This document shows, one piece after another, positions 21,163 through 29,616 of a DNA stretch of 64,000 nt. The stretch is from Glycomyces terrestris (lineage in GTDB: Bacteria > Actinomycetota > Actinomycetes > Mycobacteriales > Micromonosporaceae). The stretch's first letter is position 1. Every line of letters begins with the position of its first letter. Below the pieces are notes generated by a model that was not told the origin of the DNA, ran no database searches, and saw only the letters and a list, made by a program, of their open reading frames with translations. A program made the translations under genes and the position numbers. The stretch lies in contig NZ_RSEB01000004.1 in the NCBI RefSeq assembly GCF_003933745.1, positions 496,001 to 560,000 of the forward strand, written 5' to 3'.

Positions 21163-22848
21163 TCATGCCGGCACGACGAAGGTCGTCACGCTCTGGGGCG
21201 GGAGCGATGCGGTGAAGCCGTTGCCCCGCCCTGAGACGGCGGGCTGTTCGGCGAGGTTTCGCGTGGCGTCGGTGAGCCACTGCCGTGCTTTGCGGACCAC
21301 GCGGCCCTTCACGGCGAACGACTGGCTCGCCGATGCGGTGGTCGTGTTCACGGCGACGATGACGACCGTGCCGTCGTCGCCGGCGTAAGCGGAGGTGAGG
21401 ACGCCGGTCTGCGGTTCCTTCTGCGCTTCGACGCGGTGGTGGCCGGGGCGCACGAACTTCGAGAAGTGCGCGAGCATGCAGCCGCGCTTGCTGATCGTGC
21501 CGTCTTCGAGGAGGGGCCCGTAGAAGCGGCGGATGTACCACCAGACGTAGGCCTGGAACTGGGCGTCGGCCATCGCATGGTGCACGTGCTCGGCGACGGT
21601 GAGGGCTTCGGGCCAGAGGTTCGCCGAGCTGGAGCTGTTGGGGTGGTAGACCTCCGTCATCCACAGTTCCTTGTCCGCGCCGTTCTCCTCGAAGAGCGGA
21701 TACGGGAAGTCCTGGAGCTGCGTGCCGTAGAGGTGCGCGCCGAGGATGTCGAGGTTGGCGAGCGCCGCGGGGTGTTCGAGGATCGGGTCCGAGACGCGCT
21801 TGACGTACTGGAAGGACTCCGGTGCGATGACGCGGCAGTCGATCCCGGCGGCGAACTCGCTGAGGAAGCGGTTCATCTCGTCGGTGGTCCACCAGGTCCA
21901 CTCGTGCGCGTAGTCGGGCTCGTTCTGGACCGAGATCGCGTACAGCTCGACGCCGTTGTCGCGCATGTGGTGCACGAAGCCGTTCAGGTGGTCCGCGTAG
22001 GCGCCGTACGCGTCGTGGCGCAGGCGGCGGGCCTCGCGGGGCGGGGTGTACGGCGCGGCCATGAGGTAGTCGAGGTCCGGCCCGCCCCCGCCGGTCGCGA
22101 CGACCTTCACCGGCCATTGGCCGGGGGTCATCTGCGCCTGGACCGACGTCCAGTCCCAGGCGCCGGGTTCGGTGCGGGGGAAGCGGACGCCTTCGGCGAC
22201 CGCGACGCCCGCGACGTGGATGTCGGCCTGGACGTCTCCGGCGGGCGCCGCGTATCTGAACGCGAGGTTCTTGGTGCCGGCCGAGCCGATGACGACGTTG
22301 TCGAACTGGACGCTCGCGTCAGCGGCGTCGCCGAAGCGCACGTACCCTTCGCCCTGGTAGCCGGGGTTGTCGGTGGCGATGTGCGCGTTCACGAGAGTGG
22401 CGTCCTCGGCCTCGTACTGGCTGCCGTGGGGCACTTCGTCTCGCACGAACAGCTCGACGAGGTCGGCCGGCGGGTTCCACGGGGAGGCGAAGACGAGCGC
22501 GCCCTTGGCGGCCGCGGCTTGCGCGGTGGCGAGGTCGGCGGACCAGTCGGCGGTGTCCTCGGGCACGGGGACGCGCAGGATCGTGAAGCCGAGGTCGTCG
22601 GGGCCGTTGTCGAAGGCGGTGTCGCATTGGGACGGGGTGAGTTCGCCGATCCAGCGCGCGTGGGTCATGCCGCCGAACCCGCGGATGGCCTGGTGGCGCC
22701 GCGCGGGCTCGACGACGACGGCCCGCGGTCGGCTCGGGTCGGCCTGTGCGGGCGCTGCGCTCAGTCCGAGCGCCAGCGGCACGGCCGCGGCGCCGCCGGC
22801 CAGGACGGCGCGGCGGTTGAGCGGGGATCCGGAGGGCGGCGTTGCCAT
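21163..22848 (-). CDS. Secreted GH30 (subfamily 8-like) glucuronoxylanase with inserted CBM35-like domain
   Basis: A 561-residue exported enzyme. The N-terminus is a twin-arginine type signal (NRRAVLAGGAAAVPLALGLS, cut after AQA near residue 36). The catalytic (beta/alpha)8 domain resembles Bacillus XynC: QAIRGFGGMTHARW, FASPWNPPADLVE, AISVQNEPDYAHEW (acid/base Glu310) and ELWMTEVYHPN (nucleophile Glu399). WWYIRRFYGP holds the arginine region that in XynC contacts glucuronic acid. A C-terminal side beta-sandwich ends LPPQSVTTFVV. Unusually, a CBM35-like module (about 145-262, YEAEDATLV to LDYLMA) is inserted between FASPWNPPADLVELF and RRLRHDAYGAYADHL, within the barrel. It should cut glucuronoxylan outside the cell and feed the adjacent ABC importer. 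Confidence 0.9.
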   Translation of the reverse strand: MATPPSGSPLNRRAVLAGGAAAVPLALGLSAAPAQADPSRPRAVVVEPARRHQAIRGFGGMTHARWIGELTPSQCDTAFDNGPDDLGFTILRVPVPEDTADWSADLATAQAAAAKGALVFASPWNPPADLVELFVRDEVPHGSQYEAEDATLVNAHIATDNPGYQGEGYVRFGDAADASVQFDNVVIGSAGTKNLAFRYAAPAGDVQADIHVAGVAVAEGVRFPRTEPGAWDWTSVQAQMTPGQWPVKVVATGGGGPDLDYLMAAPYTPPREARRLRHDAYGAYADHLNGFVHHMRDNGVELYAISVQNEPDYAHEWTWWTTDEMNRFLSEFAAGIDCRVIAPESFQYVKRVSDPILEHPAALANLDILGAHLYGTQLQDFPYPLFEENGADKELWMTEVYHPNSSSSANLWPEALTVAEHVHHAMADAQFQAYVWWYIRRFYGPLLEDGTISKRGCMLAHFSKFVRPGHHRVEAQKEPQTGVLTSAYAGDDGTVVIVAVNTTTASASQSFAVKGRVVRKARQWLTDATRNLAEQPAVSGRGNGFTASLPPQSVTTFVVPA

Positions 22849-22990: not shown

Positions 22991-24655
22991 CTAGTCGGAC
23001 TCGTTCCGGGCGCGGTCGAGCGCGGCGTTGACGGTCTCGAGGAGCTGGCTCGCGCCGAGGCTCTCGACCTCGGTGACGTAGGCGTCCCAGTCGCCGTCGA
23101 TGGATCGCTGGCCGGTGATGAATCCCGCCGTGGCGGCTTGGACGGCGTCGGTGAGCTGGGTCTGGAGCAGCGAGGTCTGCTCGAGCTCGATCTCGTCCAG
23201 GAGCGGCGCGGGCGGGGTCGGGACCTGCTCCTTCCCGTCGAGCTGGCGCGCGGTCCAGTCGGCGATCTCGTCGGTCATCATGGAGAAGATGAGGTCCCTC
23301 GATGAGCCGTTGGCGAGCAGGAAGACGCCGTTGCTGTAGCCGTAGTCGGCGTTCAGGAGTTTCGGCGCGCCGGCGTTGATCGAGCTCCACGCGATGTCCT
23401 CGTTGAGGACGCGGGTGCCGTCGGCGTCGCGGGTGAACGTCTCGCCTTCGACGCCCCACTGGGCGAACTCCAGGCCCTCGTCGGAGTAGTACAGCCAGTC
23501 GACGAACTGGAGGAGCGCCTTGAAGTAGGGCTGCTCGGCCGCCTTGCTGCTGATCAGGAGGCCGGAGGTGAAGCGTCCGCTGGGGAGTTTCGAGCCGGCG
23601 GGCCCGCCGGGGATCGAGATGAGCCGGATGGGGACGTCGCCGAAGCCGGCGTCGGCGAACTTGGTCCGGTACTCGGCAAGCGTCTGGGTGTTGCCGGAGA
23701 TGGTCGCGGAGCGGCCCGAGATGAACTTCTGGACGGCCTGGTCGTCGCTCTGGGTCACCTCGGGGTCGAGCAGGCCGGCTTCGACGAGTCCCGCGGCGAA
23801 GGAGACGACTTCCTTGTACTCCTCGGTGGTGCCGGTGAACACGTACTCGCCGGCGTCCTCGTCGTAGAAGGTGTTGGCGTACCCCCATCCGGCGATGGTG
23901 TCGTAGTTCGTGGCCATCACGCTGAGGAGCGAGCCGAGGGTGGTGGCGTCGGTCCAGCGGTCCGACATCGGGTAGTCGATCTCGGGGTTGGCGTCCTTGA
24001 CCTTCTGGAGCTGCTCCCGGAACTCCTCCCAGGTGGCGGGGTCCTCGGTGACGCCGGCCCGCTCCCAGAGGTCTTCGCGGATCACGACGGAGTACTGCAC
24101 GTCGGGCGCTTCGCGGAGGCCGGGGAGGTGGTAGATCCGGCCGTCGGCCTGGCGCTTGGTCTCGAGGTCGGCTTCGAGCCCCCAGTCCTTGATCTTCTGC
24201 TGGAAGTTCGGCAGGTAGTCGAAGTAGCTGGAGACCGCGAGGATCGCCCCGCCGGAGATGAACTGGGTCTCGCTGCCCCCGTAGGTGGCGGAGATGAGGT
24301 CGGGCGCTTCACCGCTGCCGATGAGCAGGGACCGCTTCTGGTCGAAGTCGGCCATGGGGATGTCGGTGCGCTGGAAGGTGACGTTGTGGTCCTCGTCGAG
24401 GTGGTGGAAGACCGACCAGTCGTCCTGCACCGGGTAGTTGGGGTGGTCGCGGTACATGAGCGAGAACTGGACCGGCTCGGTCGCCTTGAAGGTGACGCCG
24501 ACGCCGTAGTCGTCCATGGCGCCGACGGAGTGCGCGTCGTCGATGGTGACGTCGCCGGCGGTGTCGTCGCTCGGGCCGTCGGAGCAGCCGGACAGTGCGA
24601 CATCGCATGCGGCGATGCCGGCGAGCGCGCCGAGGGCTCTGCGGGTGATGGGCAT
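22991..24655 (-). CDS. ABC sugar transporter solute-binding lipoprotein (LplA-like)
   Basis: A 554-residue binding protein. The signal MPITRRALGALAGIAAC has a twin arginine pair and a lipobox LSGC with the lipidated Cys at residue 24. The mature part is a family 1 solute-binding fold of the long LplA/YtcQ type, with features such as WEEFREQLQKVKDANPEIDY and LQFVDWLYYSDEGLEFAQWG. AGGAG lies 8 nt before the start. The gene is followed by the GH30 xylanase and preceded by two permeases. LplA/LplB/YtcP-type transporters import aldouronates in Paenibacillus, which would match a glucuronoxylanase; the ligand here is an inference. Confidence 0.88.
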   Translation of the reverse strand: MPITRRALGALAGIAACDVALSGCSDGPSDDTAGDVTIDDAHSVGAMDDYGVGVTFKATEPVQFSLMYRDHPNYPVQDDWSVFHHLDEDHNVTFQRTDIPMADFDQKRSLLIGSGEAPDLISATYGGSETQFISGGAILAVSSYFDYLPNFQQKIKDWGLEADLETKRQADGRIYHLPGLREAPDVQYSVVIREDLWERAGVTEDPATWEEFREQLQKVKDANPEIDYPMSDRWTDATTLGSLLSVMATNYDTIAGWGYANTFYDEDAGEYVFTGTTEEYKEVVSFAAGLVEAGLLDPEVTQSDDQAVQKFISGRSATISGNTQTLAEYRTKFADAGFGDVPIRLISIPGGPAGSKLPSGRFTSGLLISSKAAEQPYFKALLQFVDWLYYSDEGLEFAQWGVEGETFTRDADGTRVLNEDIAWSSINAGAPKLLNADYGYSNGVFLLANGSSRDLIFSMMTDEIADWTARQLDGKEQVPTPPAPLLDEIELEQTSLLQTQLTDAVQAATAGFITGQRSIDGDWDAYVTEVESLGASQLLETVNAALDRARNESD

Positions 24656-24715
24656 GGTGGTTCTCCTGTCGAGGGATGGCCGTCGTTGGACGGGGATTCG
24701 ATCGGTGCGGGGTGT

Positions 24716-25645
24716 TCAGCCTTTGACCGACCCGAGCATGACGCCCGAGACGAAGTAGCGCTGGATGAACGGGTAGAGGCAGATGATCGGCAGGACGGTG
24801 AGCAGCATCGTCACCGCCTGGATGTTGGAGGCGACCTGGGCGGCTTCGCCGCCGTCGGTGATCTCCTGCGTGCCGGTCGCCGCGGCGATCAGGTTGCGCA
24901 GGTAGACGGTCACCGGGAAGAGCGACTTGTCGTCCATGTAGAGGAAGGCGCTGAACCACGAGTTCCAGTGCCCGACGGCGTAGAACAGCGTCATGGTGGC
25001 GAGGACCGCCTTGGACAGGGGCAGGACGATGCGGAAGAAGATGCCGTACGTCGTGAGTCCGTCGATCGCGGCCGCCTCTTCGAGCTCGGTCGGGAAGTTC
25101 TCGAAGAACGACTTCATCACCAGCAGGTTGAAGACGCTCAGCGCGCCGGGCACGACGACGGCCAGGATGCTGTTGCGCCAGCCGAGGTAGCTGGCGATGA
25201 GGATGTAGTTGGGGATGAGGCCGCCGCTGAAGAACATCGTGAACACGGCGATGCCGACGAAGAAGGTGCGGCCCTTGAGGTGCGGTTTGCTGAGCGCATA
25301 CGCGTACGTCGAGGTGATCGCCATGGCGATGGCGGTGCCGACGATGGTGTACAGGACGGTGTTCGCGTAGTTGGTCCAGAACAGCTCGTCGGCGAACACG
25401 ACCTGGAAGGTGTCGAAGTTGAAGCCGCGCGGGACGAGGTTCACCTCGCCGGCCGCGATGTGGCCCTCGGAGGAGAACGCCTTCGCGACGAGGTTCACGA
25501 ACGGGTAGAGCGTCACGGCGCACACGAGCAGCAGCACGGTCACGTTGACGACGCGGAACACGCGGTAGCCGAGTGATTCGCGGATGACGCCGGTCTCGCG
25601 GCGGACGTGGGCGAGGTCCGGCTTCCTGGAGAGGTCTTCGGTCAC
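24716..25645 (-). CDS. ABC carbohydrate transporter permease (YtcP/LplC-like)
   Basis: A 309-residue inner-membrane permease with six predicted helices and the binding-protein-dependent transport motif EEAAAIDGLTTYGIFFRIVL, which contacts the ATPase. GGLIPNYILI and NSWFSAFLYMDDKSLFPV are typical of the YtcP/LplC subgroup. GTG 25645 is the start: its GTGA overlaps the TGA of the upstream permease gene. It forms the heterodimeric channel with the 25642-26658 product. No ATP-binding subunit is encoded in the window, so a shared MsiK-like ATPase elsewhere is likely. Confidence 0.9.
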   Translation of the reverse strand: MTEDLSRKPDLAHVRRETGVIRESLGYRVFRVVNVTVLLLVCAVTLYPFVNLVAKAFSSEGHIAAGEVNLVPRGFNFDTFQVVFADELFWTNYANTVLYTIVGTAIAMAITSTYAYALSKPHLKGRTFFVGIAVFTMFFSGGLIPNYILIASYLGWRNSILAVVVPGALSVFNLLVMKSFFENFPTELEEAAAIDGLTTYGIFFRIVLPLSKAVLATMTLFYAVGHWNSWFSAFLYMDDKSLFPVTVYLRNLIAAATGTQEITDGGEAAQVASNIQAVTMLLTVLPIICLYPFIQRYFVSGVMLGSVKG

Positions 25646-26658
25646 CACAGCGAGGTTCCAACCATTCGACGGGACAGGGTGTTCGCGAACAGCACGAGCG
25701 CGAGGCCGATGGCGGCCTCGAAGAGCCCGATCGCGGTGCCGTAGGAGAACTGGGCGGACTGGATGCCGACGCGGTACAGGTAGGTCGCGATGACATCGCC
25801 GGTAGAGTAGACGAGGGGGTTCTGGAGCAGCAGGACCTTCTCGAAGCCCACGGCCATGAACGAGCCGATGTTGAGGATCAGGAGCACCATCATCATCGGG
25901 CGGATGCCGGGCAGCGTGATGTGCCACGTCTGCTTCCAGCGGTTGGCGCCGTCGACGCGCGCCGCTTCGTAGAGCTGGTCGTCGATCGTGGTGAGCGCCG
26001 CGAGGTACAGGATGGTCCCCCAGCCGACGGTCTGCCAGACCTCTGAGGACACGTAGATCGGGCGGAACCACTCCGGCCGCTGCATGAACGGCACCGGATC
26101 GGCGCCGAGTGCGGTGGCGATCTGGTTCACCGTGCCGTTCAGCGAGGTCAGCTGGAGCACGAGGCCGACGACGATCACGATCGACATGAAGTGCGGCAGG
26201 TACGAGATCGTCTGCACGATCCGCTTGAAGCGGCGCGACCGCACCTCGTTGAGCATGAGGGCCAAGACGATCGGCAGCGGGAAGGTGACCAGGAGCGTCA
26301 GGGCGCCGAGGATCACCGTGTTCCAGAAGACGTTCCAGAACTGCTGGTTGGTGATGAAGGCTTCGAAGTAGTAGAAGCCGACCCACTCGTCGCCGAAGAT
26401 CGATCCGCCGGGGCGGAACCTCCGGAACGCGATGACGTTCCCGAGCATCGGGATGTACTTGAACACCAGGAGGAACAGGACCGGCACGATCAGGAACGTG
26501 TACAGCCGCCAGTCGCGGGCGATCGCGCGGCGCCAGGTGACGGTCGCGCGCCGGGACGGTCTGCTACGGCGTCGGCGCCCGGCCGCGGCCGTCCGCGCCG
26601 CGCTCGCGGCTCGCGCGTGGTCTTCGGAGGTGAGCTGGGTTGCAGCGGGTTGGGTCAT
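25642..26658 (-). CDS. ABC carbohydrate transporter permease (LplB/YteP-like)
   Basis: A 338-residue permease. It has an unusually long basic cytoplasmic N-terminus rich in Arg and Ala (about residues 15-45) before the first helix (LYTFLIVPVLFLLVFKYIPM). The transport motif EAARVDGANRWKQTWHITLP sits near residue 235. GWGTILYLAALTTIDDQLYE is typical of the LplB subgroup. ATG 26658 is preferred to the GTG at 26670 because GGAG lies 7 nt upstream of it. It is translationally coupled to the second permease by a GTGA overlap. Confidence 0.9.
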   Translation of the reverse strand: MTQPAATQLTSEDHARAASAARTAAAGRRRRSRPSRRATVTWRRAIARDWRLYTFLIVPVLFLLVFKYIPMLGNVIAFRRFRPGGSIFGDEWVGFYYFEAFITNQQFWNVFWNTVILGALTLLVTFPLPIVLALMLNEVRSRRFKRIVQTISYLPHFMSIVIVVGLVLQLTSLNGTVNQIATALGADPVPFMQRPEWFRPIYVSSEVWQTVGWGTILYLAALTTIDDQLYEAARVDGANRWKQTWHITLPGIRPMMMVLLILNIGSFMAVGFEKVLLLQNPLVYSTGDVIATYLYRVGIQSAQFSYGTAIGLFEAAIGLALVLFANTLSRRMVGTSLW

Positions 26659-26700
26659 TCGGGGCTCCACATCGTTGTGGTCTTCTGCGCTCGTCGCCGG

Positions 26701-27762
26701 CTACGGGGCGAGGACGACGGCGTCGGCCTGCGCTCGCAGGCTGAGTTCGGCGGCTTTCAGCGCGTGCGCTTGGGTCATCGCGGTCTCGGTGCGGTCGATG
26801 CAGTCGCGGATGAGGCGTCCGAAGTAGGGGAACCCGGTCATGCCGTTGGCGTTGAACCGGTACTGGCCCTCGTGGTTGACCAGGAGGACCTGTCCCCCGC
26901 CGTTGTCGGTGCCGATGTCGACGTACTTGCGCAGTTCGATGTAGCCGTCGGTGCCCAGCAGGAGGGTCCGCCCGTCGCCGAAGACGCCCAGGCCCTCGGG
27001 GGTGAACCAGTCCACGCGCACGTAGCCGGTGGCGCCGTTGTCGAGCACGACGTGGGCGTCGCCGAAGTCCTGGAGGCCGGGGGTGTCGGGGTGGGAGTAG
27101 TTCGCGACCGTCGAGGTGGACACGCGTCCGTCGGCGGCCCCGGTGTAGAAGAGCATCTGCTCGAAGTTGTGGCTGCCGATGTCGCAGAGGATGCCGCCGT
27201 ACTGCGCGGGATCGTAGAACCAGTCCGGTCGCCCGCCGCCGATGCGGTGCGGGCCGAAGCACACCACCTGCACGACGGTGCCGATCGCGCCCCGCTCGAT
27301 GAGCTGGCCGGCGAGGATCGCGGCCTCGGAGTGGATGCGTTCGCCGTAGTAGACCGCGTACTTGCGGCCCGTGCGCGCGGTCGCCTCGCGAACGGCCTTG
27401 AGCTGCTCGAAGGTGGTCAGCGGCGCCTTGTCGGCGAACGCGTCCTTGCCCGCCTCGATGGCGCGCAGGCCGATCGGGGCCCGGTCGGAGGGGATGGCCG
27501 CCGTGGCGACGAGGCGCACCTCGGGGTCGTCGAGCACGTCCTGCTCCGAGGCGGCGACGCGCGCGGTCGGGTAGCGCTCGGCGAACGCGGCGGCCCGGTC
27601 GGGGTCGGGGTCGAAGACCGCTGTCACGGTCGCGCCGGCGCCGATGAGGCCGTCGGTCATGCCGTAGATGTGGCCGTGGTCGAGGCCGACGGCCGCGAAC
27701 GCGAACGCTCCGGGCTCGACGACCGGCTGCGGCAGGGGGTCGAAGGTGTACGGGTGATCCAC
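26701..27762 (-). CDS. Gfo/Idh/MocA family oxidoreductase
   Basis: A 353-residue NAD(P)-dependent oxidoreductase. The N-terminal Rossmann region is atypical, FAAVGLDHGHIYGMTDGLIG, with GLDHGH in place of the usual GxGxxG/A. FADKAPLTTFEQLKAVREA stands where the family usually has the catalytic EKP motif (DKAP here). The C-terminal half is the alpha/beta substrate domain (YGGILCDIGSHNFEQMLFYT). GTG 27762 has AAGGAG upstream. The longer open frame to 27864 overlaps the cupin gene and is not favoured. Family members oxidise or epimerise sugars, inositols and uronates. It probably processes the imported sugar together with the second oxidoreductase at 28486. Confidence 0.85.
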   Translation of the reverse strand: MDHPYTFDPLPQPVVEPGAFAFAAVGLDHGHIYGMTDGLIGAGATVTAVFDPDPDRAAAFAERYPTARVAASEQDVLDDPEVRLVATAAIPSDRAPIGLRAIEAGKDAFADKAPLTTFEQLKAVREATARTGRKYAVYYGERIHSEAAILAGQLIERGAIGTVVQVVCFGPHRIGGGRPDWFYDPAQYGGILCDIGSHNFEQMLFYTGAADGRVSTSTVANYSHPDTPGLQDFGDAHVVLDNGATGYVRVDWFTPEGLGVFGDGRTLLLGTDGYIELRKYVDIGTDNGGGQVLLVNHEGQYRFNANGMTGFPYFGRLIRDCIDRTETAMTQAHALKAAELSLRAQADAVVLAP

Positions 27763-27775
27763 TGTGGGGTGCTCC

Positions 27776-28489
27776 TTAATCGGTGACGTCGTAGGTGCGC
27801 AGGCGCCCGCACATGCCGTACTTGCGGGCGCCTTCGGAGGGGATCGCCTGGTGCACACGGGCATCGCTCAGGTGCGCGATGTCGCCTCGGGCGACCGCCC
27901 GGGTCAGTGCGAGTGACCGCTCGGCCTGCGCGAGGGGTCGCTCGCGCACGAGCCGGCCCCAGTCCTCGGCACGGGCCTGGACGAGCGCGCCGGCCGCGGC
28001 GTGGAAGTCCTTGAGCGGCCCGAGGTCGCCGGAGCGGACCGCGTCGCGCAGGCGCCCGAAGCCGGTCACGGCCAGGTCGCGGCGCGCTTCCACGCGCTCG
28101 CTGCGGCCGTACGAGTCGCCGATCGAGGCCGCTTCGTCGTACGCGGCGGGGTCGGCGAGGATCTCGGCGGGGAACGTCATGACCGCGTCGCCGGCCTCGG
28201 GCAGGCCGGCGTTGCTCATCAGCACGATGATCTTCAGCCCTCCCCGGTTCACGGCGCGGTGGATCGTGCCCGGGGTGAACCACACGACCGAGCCCGCTTC
28301 GAGGTCGGTCTCGTGGAAGCCCTCGCCGTCGATCGCCTGGAGCGTTCCCCGGCCCTCGACGACGAGGTACGCCTCGGTGGAGACCAGGTGCATGTGGGGG
28401 CTGCCGCCGCAGACGCCGTCGGGCGCGGCGCTGCCGTAGACGTCGAGGTGCGACAGCGACGTGCCGCCGGGGAACGAGGAGATGGTCAC
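27776..28489 (-). CDS. Cupin-domain protein
   Basis: A 237-residue protein. A single cupin occupies about residues 28-110, with likely metal ligands His32, His34 and Glu39 in PHMHLVSTEAYLVV and His77 in FTPGTIHRAVN. The C-terminal half is helical and of no family I recognise. Single cupins in sugar operons are often isomerases, lyases or sensors. It starts with GTG 28489, whose GTGA overlaps the stop of the upstream Gfo/Idh gene. It lies between the two oxidoreductases, so a role in the same sugar or uronate pathway is inferred. Confidence 0.8.
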   Translation of the reverse strand: MTISSFPGGTSLSHLDVYGSAAPDGVCGGSPHMHLVSTEAYLVVEGRGTLQAIDGEGFHETDLEAGSVVWFTPGTIHRAVNRGGLKIIVLMSNAGLPEAGDAVMTFPAEILADPAAYDEAASIGDSYGRSERVEARRDLAVTGFGRLRDAVRSGDLGPLKDFHAAAGALVQARAEDWGRLVRERPLAQAERSLALTRAVARGDIAHLSDARVHQAIPSEGARKYGMCGRLRTYDVTD

Positions 28490-29616
28490 GAGGCCGCCTC
28501 GGCGAGCGATCGCTGCTTCTCGTGGAAGTGCGGTGCGTGCTCCACGAGCCGGCCGGCCCGGTAGTAGGGGTCGTCCGCCCGCAGCGGGAGCTGGACGAAC
28601 GTCCGCTCGATGCCCGACTTGTAGATCGCGGTGACGACCTCGACCGCGTTCCGGCCGTCCCGGCCGTCGGCGATGGGCGCGCGTCCCTCGCGGATCGCGG
28701 ACAGGAGGTCGCCGATCTGCCCCGCGTGGCCGCGGTGGCGCAGCGGCTCGCGCTGCGCGACCACCGCCTCGATGGCCGCCACCAGGTCCGGATCGCCGCC
28801 CCGCTCGGGGAAGCCGGCCTCATTGGACCGCTCGGCGACGACCTTCCACGGCTGGGAGACCCGGGCCTTCTCGCCTTGGACGACGATCTCCTGCTCCTCG
28901 CCGTGGTGCACGACCGAGCTCGTCAGCTGAGCGAGGCCCTGCTCGAACCGGAACACCGCGACGGAGAGGTCCTCGACCTCGCTGTTGCCGTGCTGGGCGT
29001 TCGCGAGCATCGCGGTGATCTCGGTCGGGCGTCCCAGCATCCACAGCAGCAGGTCGATGTGGTGGATGGCGTGGTTGAGCGTGCAGCCGCCGCCTTCCTT
29101 CTCCCACGTGCCGCGCCACCACAGGTCGTAGTACGGCAGGCCCCGCCACCAGGCCGAGTCCACCCGGACGTGGGACACCGAGCCGAGCAGGCCCGAGTCG
29201 AGGACGTCCTTGAGCGTGGCGAGGTCGTCGCGGAAGCGGTTCTGCGCCACCACCGAGAGCAGCCTCCCGGAGCGCTCCTGCGCCGCGAGCATCGCGTCGC
29301 ATTCCTCCAGCGACGGCGCCATCGGCTTCTCCACCAGGACGTTCACGCCCGCGTCCAGTGCCGCCACGGCCAGCGCGGCGTGGGTGGACGGCGGCGTCGC
29401 GATGCTCACCAGGTCGAGGCGGGCCTCGGCAAGCATCCGCAGCGGGTCGTCGTACCCGGTCGCGTCTCCCAGCCCGAACGACGCGGCCTTCTCGGCCGCC
29501 TTGCCCGGCACGGCGTCGGCGAGCGCGACGATCTCGCATTCGTCGGGGAACGCGCGGTAGCCCTCGACGTGCGCCCCCGCGATGCCGCCGGTGCCGATGA
29601 TTCCTACTCTGAGCAT
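28486..29616 (-). CDS. Gfo/Idh/MocA family oxidoreductase
   Basis: A 376-residue protein with the normal family motifs: VGIIGTGGIAGAHVEGY at the N-terminus (NAD(P)-binding GxGxxA type), VSIATPPSTHAALAV, then VLVEKPMAPSLEECD with the conserved EKP lysine, and CTLNHAIHHIDLLLWMLG in the substrate domain. It is cytoplasmic and probably acts on a sugar or uronic acid delivered by the adjacent importer. GAGGAG precedes ATG 29616. It is the promoter-proximal gene of the minus-strand operon and faces the LacI gene across a palindromic operator. Confidence 0.9.
   Translation of the reverse strand: MLRVGIIGTGGIAGAHVEGYRAFPDECEIVALADAVPGKAAEKAASFGLGDATGYDDPLRMLAEARLDLVSIATPPSTHAALAVAALDAGVNVLVEKPMAPSLEECDAMLAAQERSGRLLSVVAQNRFRDDLATLKDVLDSGLLGSVSHVRVDSAWWRGLPYYDLWWRGTWEKEGGGCTLNHAIHHIDLLLWMLGRPTEITAMLANAQHGNSEVEDLSVAVFRFEQGLAQLTSSVVHHGEEQEIVVQGEKARVSQPWKVVAERSNEAGFPERGGDPDLVAAIEAVVAQREPLRHRGHAGQIGDLLSAIREGRAPIADGRDGRNAVEVVTAIYKSGIERTFVQLPLRADDPYYRAGRLVEHAPHFHEKQRSLAEAAS

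Follow-up and report, generated by a model that had tools for sequence, protein, structure and literature searches.

A CBM35 module lies inside the catalytic barrel of GH30_8-type glucuronoxylanases from Actinomycetota and Paenibacillaceae

The glucuronoxylanase gene that we analyzed in Glycomyces terrestris, within a window of 64,000 nucleotides (the whole stretch of DNA under study), codes for a discontinuous catalytic domain in which a carbohydrate-binding module of family CBM35 is placed between the barrel elements β3 and α3. We identified 17 GH30_8 proteins with such an internal CBM35, eight in Actinomycetota and nine in Paenibacillaceae, and the domain, its position in the sequence and its presence in two phyla are solid. 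Inserted CBMs are already known in GH10 and GH66; in the literature searched, we found none described for GH30. We give about an even chance to the proposal that the internal CBM35 has taken on a new role, as a fixed wall of the catalytic cleft or a guide along it.

The gene (21163..22848; this and all features below are on the minus strand) codes for a protein of 561 aa (P0001), assigned to the GH30_8 type by Pfam, NCBIfam and PDB sequence matches and aligned with five full-length relatives. Its closest named relative is from Glycomyces albidus (90% identity), and the same genome encodes a second GH30_8 protein without insert. The N-terminus carries an export signal (aa 1-36; 22741..22848) with a twin-arginine-like motif, NRRAVLAGG, in a region of low model confidence (pLDDT 31-44 over aa 1-40); we take this to be a putative Tat signal. 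Pfam places the GH30 side sandwich (PF17189) above cutoff at aa 472-557, and the NCBIfam XynC equivalog NF052681 matches with an E-value of 8e-178 in two stretches split by the insert. The score of 591.6 bits lies below the curated cutoff of 650, for which both the insert and divergence may be responsible. Since this cutoff is missed, yet an insert-bearing protein of Paenibacillus barcinonensis (L106) reaches 723 bits, we do not claim the XynC equivalog name, and describe the protein as GH30_8-type by fold and residues only. Judged from its sequence, the product is a secreted GH30_8-type glucuronoxylanase, with a predicted MeGlcA-dependent endoxylanase activity.

The first-pass annotation had noted a close likeness to Bacillus XynC, and this holds well. 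The full AlphaFold2 model (31 aligned sequences; mean pLDDT 86.6, pTM 0.72) matches XynC (3kl3_B) in Foldseek with a TM-score of 0.97 over the target, keeping both barrel and side β-sandwich. Moreover, all 16 substrate residues given for BpXyn30_8A of B. pumilus in Table 2 of PMC12921914, including the catalytic Glu pair, are identical in the window protein, according to a mapping via a B. pumilus genome sequence (L075) that agrees with the numbering of that paper at 19 of 19 sites tried. This mapping identifies E310 (21919..21921) as the acid/base (Glu138 of BpXyn30_8A), E399 (21652..21654) as the nucleophile (Glu227), and R441 and Y443 (21520..21528) as the methylglucuronate contacts of subsite -2b (Arg270, Tyr272). 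Other carriers depart from the set at two positions, Phe174 being replaced by Tyr in one of the eight actinobacterial proteins and Gln175 by Ser in all nine from Paenibacillaceae. XynC of B. subtilis and BpXyn30_8A, both GH30_8 enzymes without CBM, share barrel, side sandwich and tabulated substrate residues with the window protein, but have a short hairpin turn where the latter has the module.

That module had been read as a CBM35-like segment of extra residues at about 145-262; the interval 22063-22416 corresponds exactly to codons 145-262 of the gene, and we set the limits slightly wider, at aa 143-263 (22060..22422), with short linkers on either side, on the basis of Pfam, the PDB match, AlphaFold2 and Foldseek. 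In the full protein, Pfam CBM_35 (PF16990) scores 38.6 bits (E 1.5e-9) at aa 144-221, above the gathering score of 28; when the segment is searched alone, the match reaches 42.4 bits with an E-value of 1e-10. In a PDB sequence search, the insert finds the CBM35 of Xyn30D first (E 2.2e-17), and then CsxA. Modelled alone (AlphaFold2, 26 sequences), the insert is predicted as a separate β-sandwich with pLDDT 95.6 and pTM 0.88, and matches the Xyn30D CBM35 (4qb1/4qb2) with a Foldseek TM-score of 0.95. A search of a viral fold library gave remote matches only. The predicted fold is the β-jellyroll of CBM35, and E146, E148 and D260 align with the calcium side chains of the family, presumably holding a calcium ion. 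In the full model, ten-residue blocks have pLDDT of 86-96 over aa 141-260, and about 70 at the two linkers.

The catalytic domain continues on both sides of the module. Its first part (aa 44-135; 22444..22719), delimited by PDB matches, AlphaFold2 and Foldseek, runs to just past β3 (FASPWNPPADLVELF), and the remainder, in which the barrel is completed and the GH30 side β-sandwich follows (aa 272-559; 21172..22035), is delimited by PF17189, PDB matches and Foldseek. Each of the eleven best PDB chains matches the protein in two parts, neither of which spans the insert; in three alignments these pieces cover about aa 45-141 and 272-559, and 4qaw has a third piece, which is its own CBM35. The distance between the motifs SPWNPP and NEPD is 187-192 residues in 17/17 insert carriers versus 52-57 in all 73 GH30_8 barrels without internal module, the latter being those recognized by motif (insert-free L018, L021, L024, L025 and L028 were missed by the filter). 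A segment belonging to the normal GH30 fold is thus ruled out, the 73 motif-recognized insert-free barrels all being shorter and the best PDB matches skipping it. We also ruled out a frameshift, chimera or assembly artefact, from the open frame, an insert dN/dS well below 1 and the orthologues in other genera.

The insertion point is common to all 17 carriers, at the same hairpin turn in the β3-α3 loop. In the window protein the insert is flanked by strands predicted by AlphaFold2 at 131-135 and 272-276. According to PMC12921914, a β motif after loop 3 is tied to loop 4 via Arg96, Lys102 and Trp147, and the contact region of loops 3 and 4 is proposed there to possibly influence substrate accommodation and cleavage pattern. 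The two predicted strands would be the arms of this motif: the first arm (aa 131-136; 22441..22458) ends with R136, matching Arg96, the second (aa 272-276, EARRL; 22021..22035) contains R274, matching Lys102, the insert sits between these two residues, and Trp147 corresponds to W319.

Concerning its distribution, the insertion was sought in other actinobacterial GH30_8 proteins, and we found it in Glycomyces, Microbacterium, Arthrobacter and Micromonospora. Full-length matches spanning the insert are present in six of 300 genomes of the same family, five of the same genus (its own included) and one of another. A junction-alignment scan of named genomes gave 48 loci, seven with the insertion: four Glycomyces, Microbacterium barkeri, Arthrobacter sp. 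B6 and Micromonospora sp. NBRC 107566, five of these being the same records as carriers in the 300-genome sample; the scan patterns were built from actinobacterial sequences and recovered no Paenibacillus internal carrier. Junction-spanning matches were found in 1/396 Actinomycetota genomes (the window's own), 1/249 Microbacteriaceae (M. barkeri), 1/197 Micrococcaceae (Arthrobacter B6) and 1/348 Bacillota (P. barcinonensis). The insert query matched 168 of 295 Paenibacillaceae genomes, at least nine of which have an internal CBM35 in GH30_8, a lower bound as modules were placed for the listed matches down to an E-value of about 3e-14. By locus, L106-L137 comprise eight internal, 23 C-terminal and two non-GH30_8 cases, and L138-L173 three internal, 34 C-terminal and three non-GH30_8, the internal L139 and L173 repeating L118 and L123. 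Two Paenibacillaceae proteins (L123/L173 and L138) have both an internal and a C-terminal CBM35. These carriers rule out that the insertion is confined to Actinobacteria. As for carriage on plasmids, seven plasmid records were matched, none with a single place covering 80% of the query.

The binding regions of CBM35 are described in PMC9843283 as a Trp (region A), two Asn (regions C and E), a basic Arg and the calcium side chains. In PDB 4QB2, according to PMC12464755, glucuronate is held by a Trp, a guanidinium, calcium, a Tyr and an Asn, the guanidinium making a salt bridge with the carboxylate. We assigned the corresponding columns ourselves, from the motifs GYVNF, TRNLD, STW and GPNxD, picking the columns after inspection, and counted residues over the 17 internal and 38 C-terminal modules of the tree set, to which 31 further C-terminal modules were added (69 in all, 60 distinct sequences); these rows are related sequences, and the counts that follow are not independent events. 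The region-A stacking Trp, W231 in the window module (22156..22158), is present in 17/17 internal and 69/69 C-terminal modules. The Tyr of the GYV motif, aligned with Y169 (22342..22344), is likewise present in all 17 internal modules, versus 35/38 C-terminal ones. The structural-calcium side chains are also kept, at E146-A-E148 (22405..22413; calcium role from PMC9843283, residues from the CBM35 alignment) and D260 (22069..22071), with the first Glu in 16/17 internal modules, the second in 17/17 and the Asp in 17/17.

The remaining pocket residues behave differently in the two positions. The region-E Asn is absent from every internal module and present in 65/69 C-terminal ones, the window protein having R171 (22336..22338). 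The basic Arg is found in 2/17 internal (L039, L139) versus 69/69 C-terminal modules, its place being taken by V206 (22231..22233). The region-C Asn, D258 in the window module (22075..22077), is kept in 7/17 internal modules (0/8 actinobacterial, 7/9 Paenibacillaceae) versus 69/69. In Actinomycetota both Asn are absent from all eight modules and the Arg from seven. As a whole, the Asn/Arg/Asn uronate set is complete in 0/17 internal modules, 65/69 C-terminal modules and 10/39 other CBM35s. Conversely, Ile-Gly-Ser at I187-G188-S189 (22282..22290) is present in 17/17 internal modules and in none of the 69 C-terminal or 39 other CBM35s. The contrast between positions was unchanged as the C-terminal count grew from 38 to 69. 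Set beside uronate-binding CBM35s of the Xyn30D and CsxA type, the window module thus has the stacking Trp (W231), but D258, R171 and V206 in place of the region-C Asn, the region-E Asn and the Arg. The suggestion of the first-pass annotation that the module could help to determine how substituted xylan is recognized finds partial backing, as stacking Trp and calcium residues persist, but the residue set that would read a uronate is complete in none of the 17.

The insert is under purifying selection. Its dN/dS is 0.27-0.42 among the window gene and four Glycomyces orthologues, versus 0.17-0.43 in the two parts of the barrel. Of the seven comparisons that involve the Micromonospora copy, six give values of 0.66-0.88, and the one with Arthrobacter gives 0.21. 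In most comparisons the insert changes faster, or is less conserved, than the barrel.

In a tree of 90 GH30_8 barrels, the carriers fall into two groups (100/99 each), one of the eight actinobacterial and one of the nine Paenibacillaceae proteins, the former beside insert-free actinobacterial enzymes and the latter among Paenibacillaceae enzymes with a C-terminal CBM35. Forcing all 17 carriers together costs 33 log units (p-AU 0.0504), and 24 log units (p-AU 0.176) when five long rows, two of them carriers, are removed; in neither case is a single origin rejected. A second tree, built from 94 CBM35 modules, unites those of the GH30_8 proteins, both internal and C-terminal, with three further Paenibacillaceae modules in a group of 58 (100/99), in which the Paenibacillaceae internal modules fall among the C-terminal ones (several forks being weakly supported), with the actinobacterial modules outside (95/91). 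Here too the 17 internal modules forced together are not rejected (p-AU 0.278), nor after removal of nine diagnostic columns with 62 of the 94 rows (p-AU 0.137). Sequences were sampled by similarity to the insert, and nearest relatives are nearest among those sampled; duplicate records, the insert-free L018, L021, L024, L025 and L028, and L141-L173 were left out of the trees, the C-terminal modules of L141-L172 entering the residue counts only.

The insertion may have arisen once or twice: the maximum likelihood trees place the two groups apart for both barrel and module, yet a single origin is compatible with the tests that force them into one clade. The Ile-Gly-Ser common to all 17 could mean that the modules descend from one ancestor, or that the same constraint acted twice. 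That two phyla independently inserted a CBM35 in the same GH30_8 hairpin, both losing the region-E Asn (17/17) and mostly the Arg (15/17) and fixing Ile-Gly-Ser, is a tentative scenario that we consider possible but on the unlikely side. If true, it would mean that a module for substrate targeting was turned more than once into a fixed piece of the wall of the active site, and L123 and L138 would show the old and new uses of the module side by side.

The window gene comes after the genes of an ABC importer: two permeases (24716..25615, start codon approximate, and 25642..26670) and an extracellular solute-binding protein (22991..24655), probably for oligosaccharides. The binding protein is 79% identical to its counterpart near the Microbacterium barkeri orthologue, slightly above the 75% of the xylanases themselves, which fits the transfer of a block between families. 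A permease match lies near 9/16 internal loci other than the window versus 1/68 loci taken as C-terminal, counts that omit L173 (the second copy of L123), include among the 68 the non-GH30_8 L150 and at least six repeat records, and compare flanks of different length. Five Paenibacillaceae internal carriers adjoin permeases, and in P. barcinonensis the internal carrier has a two-component system, a binding protein and permeases as neighbours. No permease match was found within the examined flanks of Glycomyces lechevalierae (L035), the Arthrobacter and Micromonospora carriers and four Paenibacillaceae carriers. Given the flaws of the 68-locus sample, the uneven flanks, and permeases merely 35-39% identical between the two phyla, the association may be due to chance or shared lifestyle, and an importer-xylanase link across carriers is a weak lead.

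The closest known system is Xyn30D of P. barcinonensis (PDB 4qaw, 4qb1, 4qb2), which has the same GH30_8 and CBM35 modules, its chain being the best PDB sequence match of the protein and its CBM35 ranking first for the insert by both sequence and fold. In Xyn30D, however, the CBM35 is C-terminal with a full uronate set, whereas in the window protein it lies inside the barrel and the set is broken. P. barcinonensis also possesses a second GH30_8 protein, with an internal CBM35 (L106). That binding modules are usually attached at the ends of glycosidases, as the first-pass annotation stated, is true, but inserted precedents exist. PMC7848910 describes GH10 xylanases with CBM4 pairs inserted between β3 and α3, and also mentions the CBM58 of SusG; the inserted CBM4s of GH10 Pm25 are reported there to bind and to aid action on complex biomass, largely independently of catalysis. 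These enzymes (Xyn10C/Pm25) are likewise TIM-barrel xylanases with a CBM in the topologically equivalent loop, but differ in catalytic and CBM families, in belonging to a Bacteroidetes system and in their tandem binding modules. In GH66 CITases a CBM35 is inserted in the TIM barrel and, as in L123 and L138, another CBM35 follows later in the chain, and the surface formed by module and barrel guides the substrate in PsCITase (PMC5408701); here the barrel is another one, the loop is the seventh and the ligand is α-1,6-glucan. CE20 esterases (PMC12313940) resemble our case in that an inserted β-sandwich helps to form the active site of a carbohydrate-active enzyme, but they are SGNH hydrolases whose ancillary domain is GH2-sandwich-like and not a CBM35. 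Among GH30 enzymes, PMC9996879 lists the CBM families of xylanases, and reports no contribution of the Xyn30D CBM35 to catalytic properties. In the literature searched, which omits most subscription papers and includes PMC10269863, PMC6511221, PMC8347883 and PMC12921914, we found no description of an internal CBM35 in GH30.

These data place an inserted CBM35 at the β-hairpin turn of the β3-α3 loop, beside loop 4 that bears the acid/base. We propose that the module, fixed by two connections and by a calcium clamp near its ends, would not swing as a C-terminal module does. Its old uronate pocket would have decayed piecemeal, the region-E Asn being absent from 17 modules, the carboxylate-binding Arg from 15 and the region-C Asn from 10, with the stacking Trp retained and Ile-Gly-Ser newly fixed. 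The module may then prolong the wall of the cleft as a rigid element, guiding or propping the xylan chain, or may brace loop 4, the methylglucuronic acid being read by the barrel itself, and would not be a free-standing uronate-targeting unit. Loss of the uronate set in common, retention of the Trp and calcium residues, and an invariant new motif fit a part of the cleft better than a plain targeting module. Precedents for a CBM35 that acts as a guide wall or as a non-binding component are, respectively, that of PsCITase and N1 of dextran dextrinase, a CBM35-like domain without sugar-binding residues that is required for activity, although N-terminal and not inserted (PMC12446779).

Several points speak against this proposal. 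The conserved Trp and Tyr could mean that the module still binds a sugar, the region-C Asn is kept in 7/9 Paenibacillaceae modules and the Arg in L039 and L139, and, by analogy with the Pm25 CBM4s, it may be a plain targeting module. Moreover, in most comparisons the insert has changed more rapidly than the barrel, with high dN/dS against Micromonospora, and the placement of the module at the cleft is conjectural, the full model having a pTM of 0.72, a pLDDT of about 70 at the linkers and one below 50 at aa 311-315, beside the acid/base.

Alternatively, the module may have been retargeted to a neutral ligand, either the xylan backbone or another cell-wall sugar, bound via W231 and Y169, and may help the enzyme by proximity. 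We regard this as possible but rather unlikely: the Trp and Tyr are kept in all 17 modules while the Arg is lost in 15, CBM35 ligands are known to vary (PMC5408701) and inserted CBM4s do bind in GH10 Pm25 (PMC7848910), but the Trp could be retained for packing, and the actinobacterial modules have lost both Asn (8/8) and nearly always the Arg (7/8).

An ordinary uronate-binding CBM35, simply sitting in a loop and targeting the enzyme to glucuronoxylan, is nearest to what was initially supposed. It would agree with the fact that the closest sampled modules are those of Xyn30D-type enzymes, Xyn30D's own being glucuronate-bound in 4qb2, and with the retained Trp, Tyr and calcium residues. We nevertheless find it improbable, as the Asn/Arg/Asn set separates internal from C-terminal modules (0/17 versus 65/69) and the guanidinium that bridges the carboxylate (PMC12464755) is replaced by Val in the window protein according to our column assignment. 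Finally, a structural spacer, a tolerated insertion serving just to stabilize the secreted enzyme or its hairpin with no role towards the substrate, is similarly improbable: fold and calcium residues are indeed better conserved than pocket residues, the insert is less conserved than the barrel in most comparisons, and the dextran dextrinase N1 lacks sugar-binding residues (though it is needed for activity), but purifying selection, the invariance of Ile-Gly-Ser and Trp across two phyla, and retention of the module in several actinobacterial families stand against it.

The conversion of a binding module into a part of the active site, as we propose for the internal CBM35, is usually argued from single structures. 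Here, related organisms combine the same catalytic domain with C-terminal, internal and double CBM35 layouts, and a few simple residues mark the switch; the conversion can therefore be tested in enzymes of Paenibacillus or Glycomyces, by comparing modules or exchanging them from one position to another. The carriers also provide glucuronoxylanases whose loop 3 is altered, in the very region of contact between loops 3 and 4 described in PMC12921914.

The window xylanase (21163-22848, minus strand) scores 591.6 bits against the curated NCBIfam XynC model, below its cutoff of 650, and automatic annotation pipelines may therefore leave it unnamed as a glucuronoxylanase. The cutoff is exceeded by a protein of P. 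barcinonensis (L106:1012-2769, plus strand), which is a second GH30_8 enzyme of this species and carries an internal CBM35. The same species is the source of Xyn30D, whose structure is solved and which bears its CBM35 at the C-terminus.

The ABC importer genes adjoining the window xylanase (22991-26670) are very similar to those of Microbacterium barkeri (L034:1-2745), with 79% identity for the binding protein and 89% for one permease. This likeness in sequence fits transfer as a block. The binding-protein and xylanase genes of M. barkeri are separated by a GH42-type gene. Two Gfo/Idh/MocA-type oxidoreductases (26701-27864 and 28486-29616) are encoded upstream of the importer in the window.

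The G. terrestris genome also encodes a second GH30_8 without the insert (contig C10, L104:3018-4289, plus strand), upstream of an MFS transporter gene; the hairpin turn of this enzyme is shorter still than that of XynC. Another CBM35 lies close to the N-terminus of a rhamnogalacturonan lyase family 11 protein (contig C1, L103:373-2703, minus strand), and is related to that of a pectate-lyase-like protein in locus L105.

Internal and C-terminal CBM35 modules occur together in single GH30_8 chains at L123:184-2283 (minus strand), which is the same gene as L173:3912-6011 (minus strand), and at L138:536-2797 (plus strand). In these chains the uronate-binding Arg is retained in the C-terminal copies and absent from the internal ones. 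Much alike C-terminal CBM35 modules are carried by three Paenibacillaceae proteins lacking GH30_8 motifs (L140:1168-3138 and L150:1808-3778, minus strand; L109:1-1878, plus strand), one of which adjoins a GH30_8 bearing a C-terminal CBM35. A module of this type seems to be mobile between enzymes.
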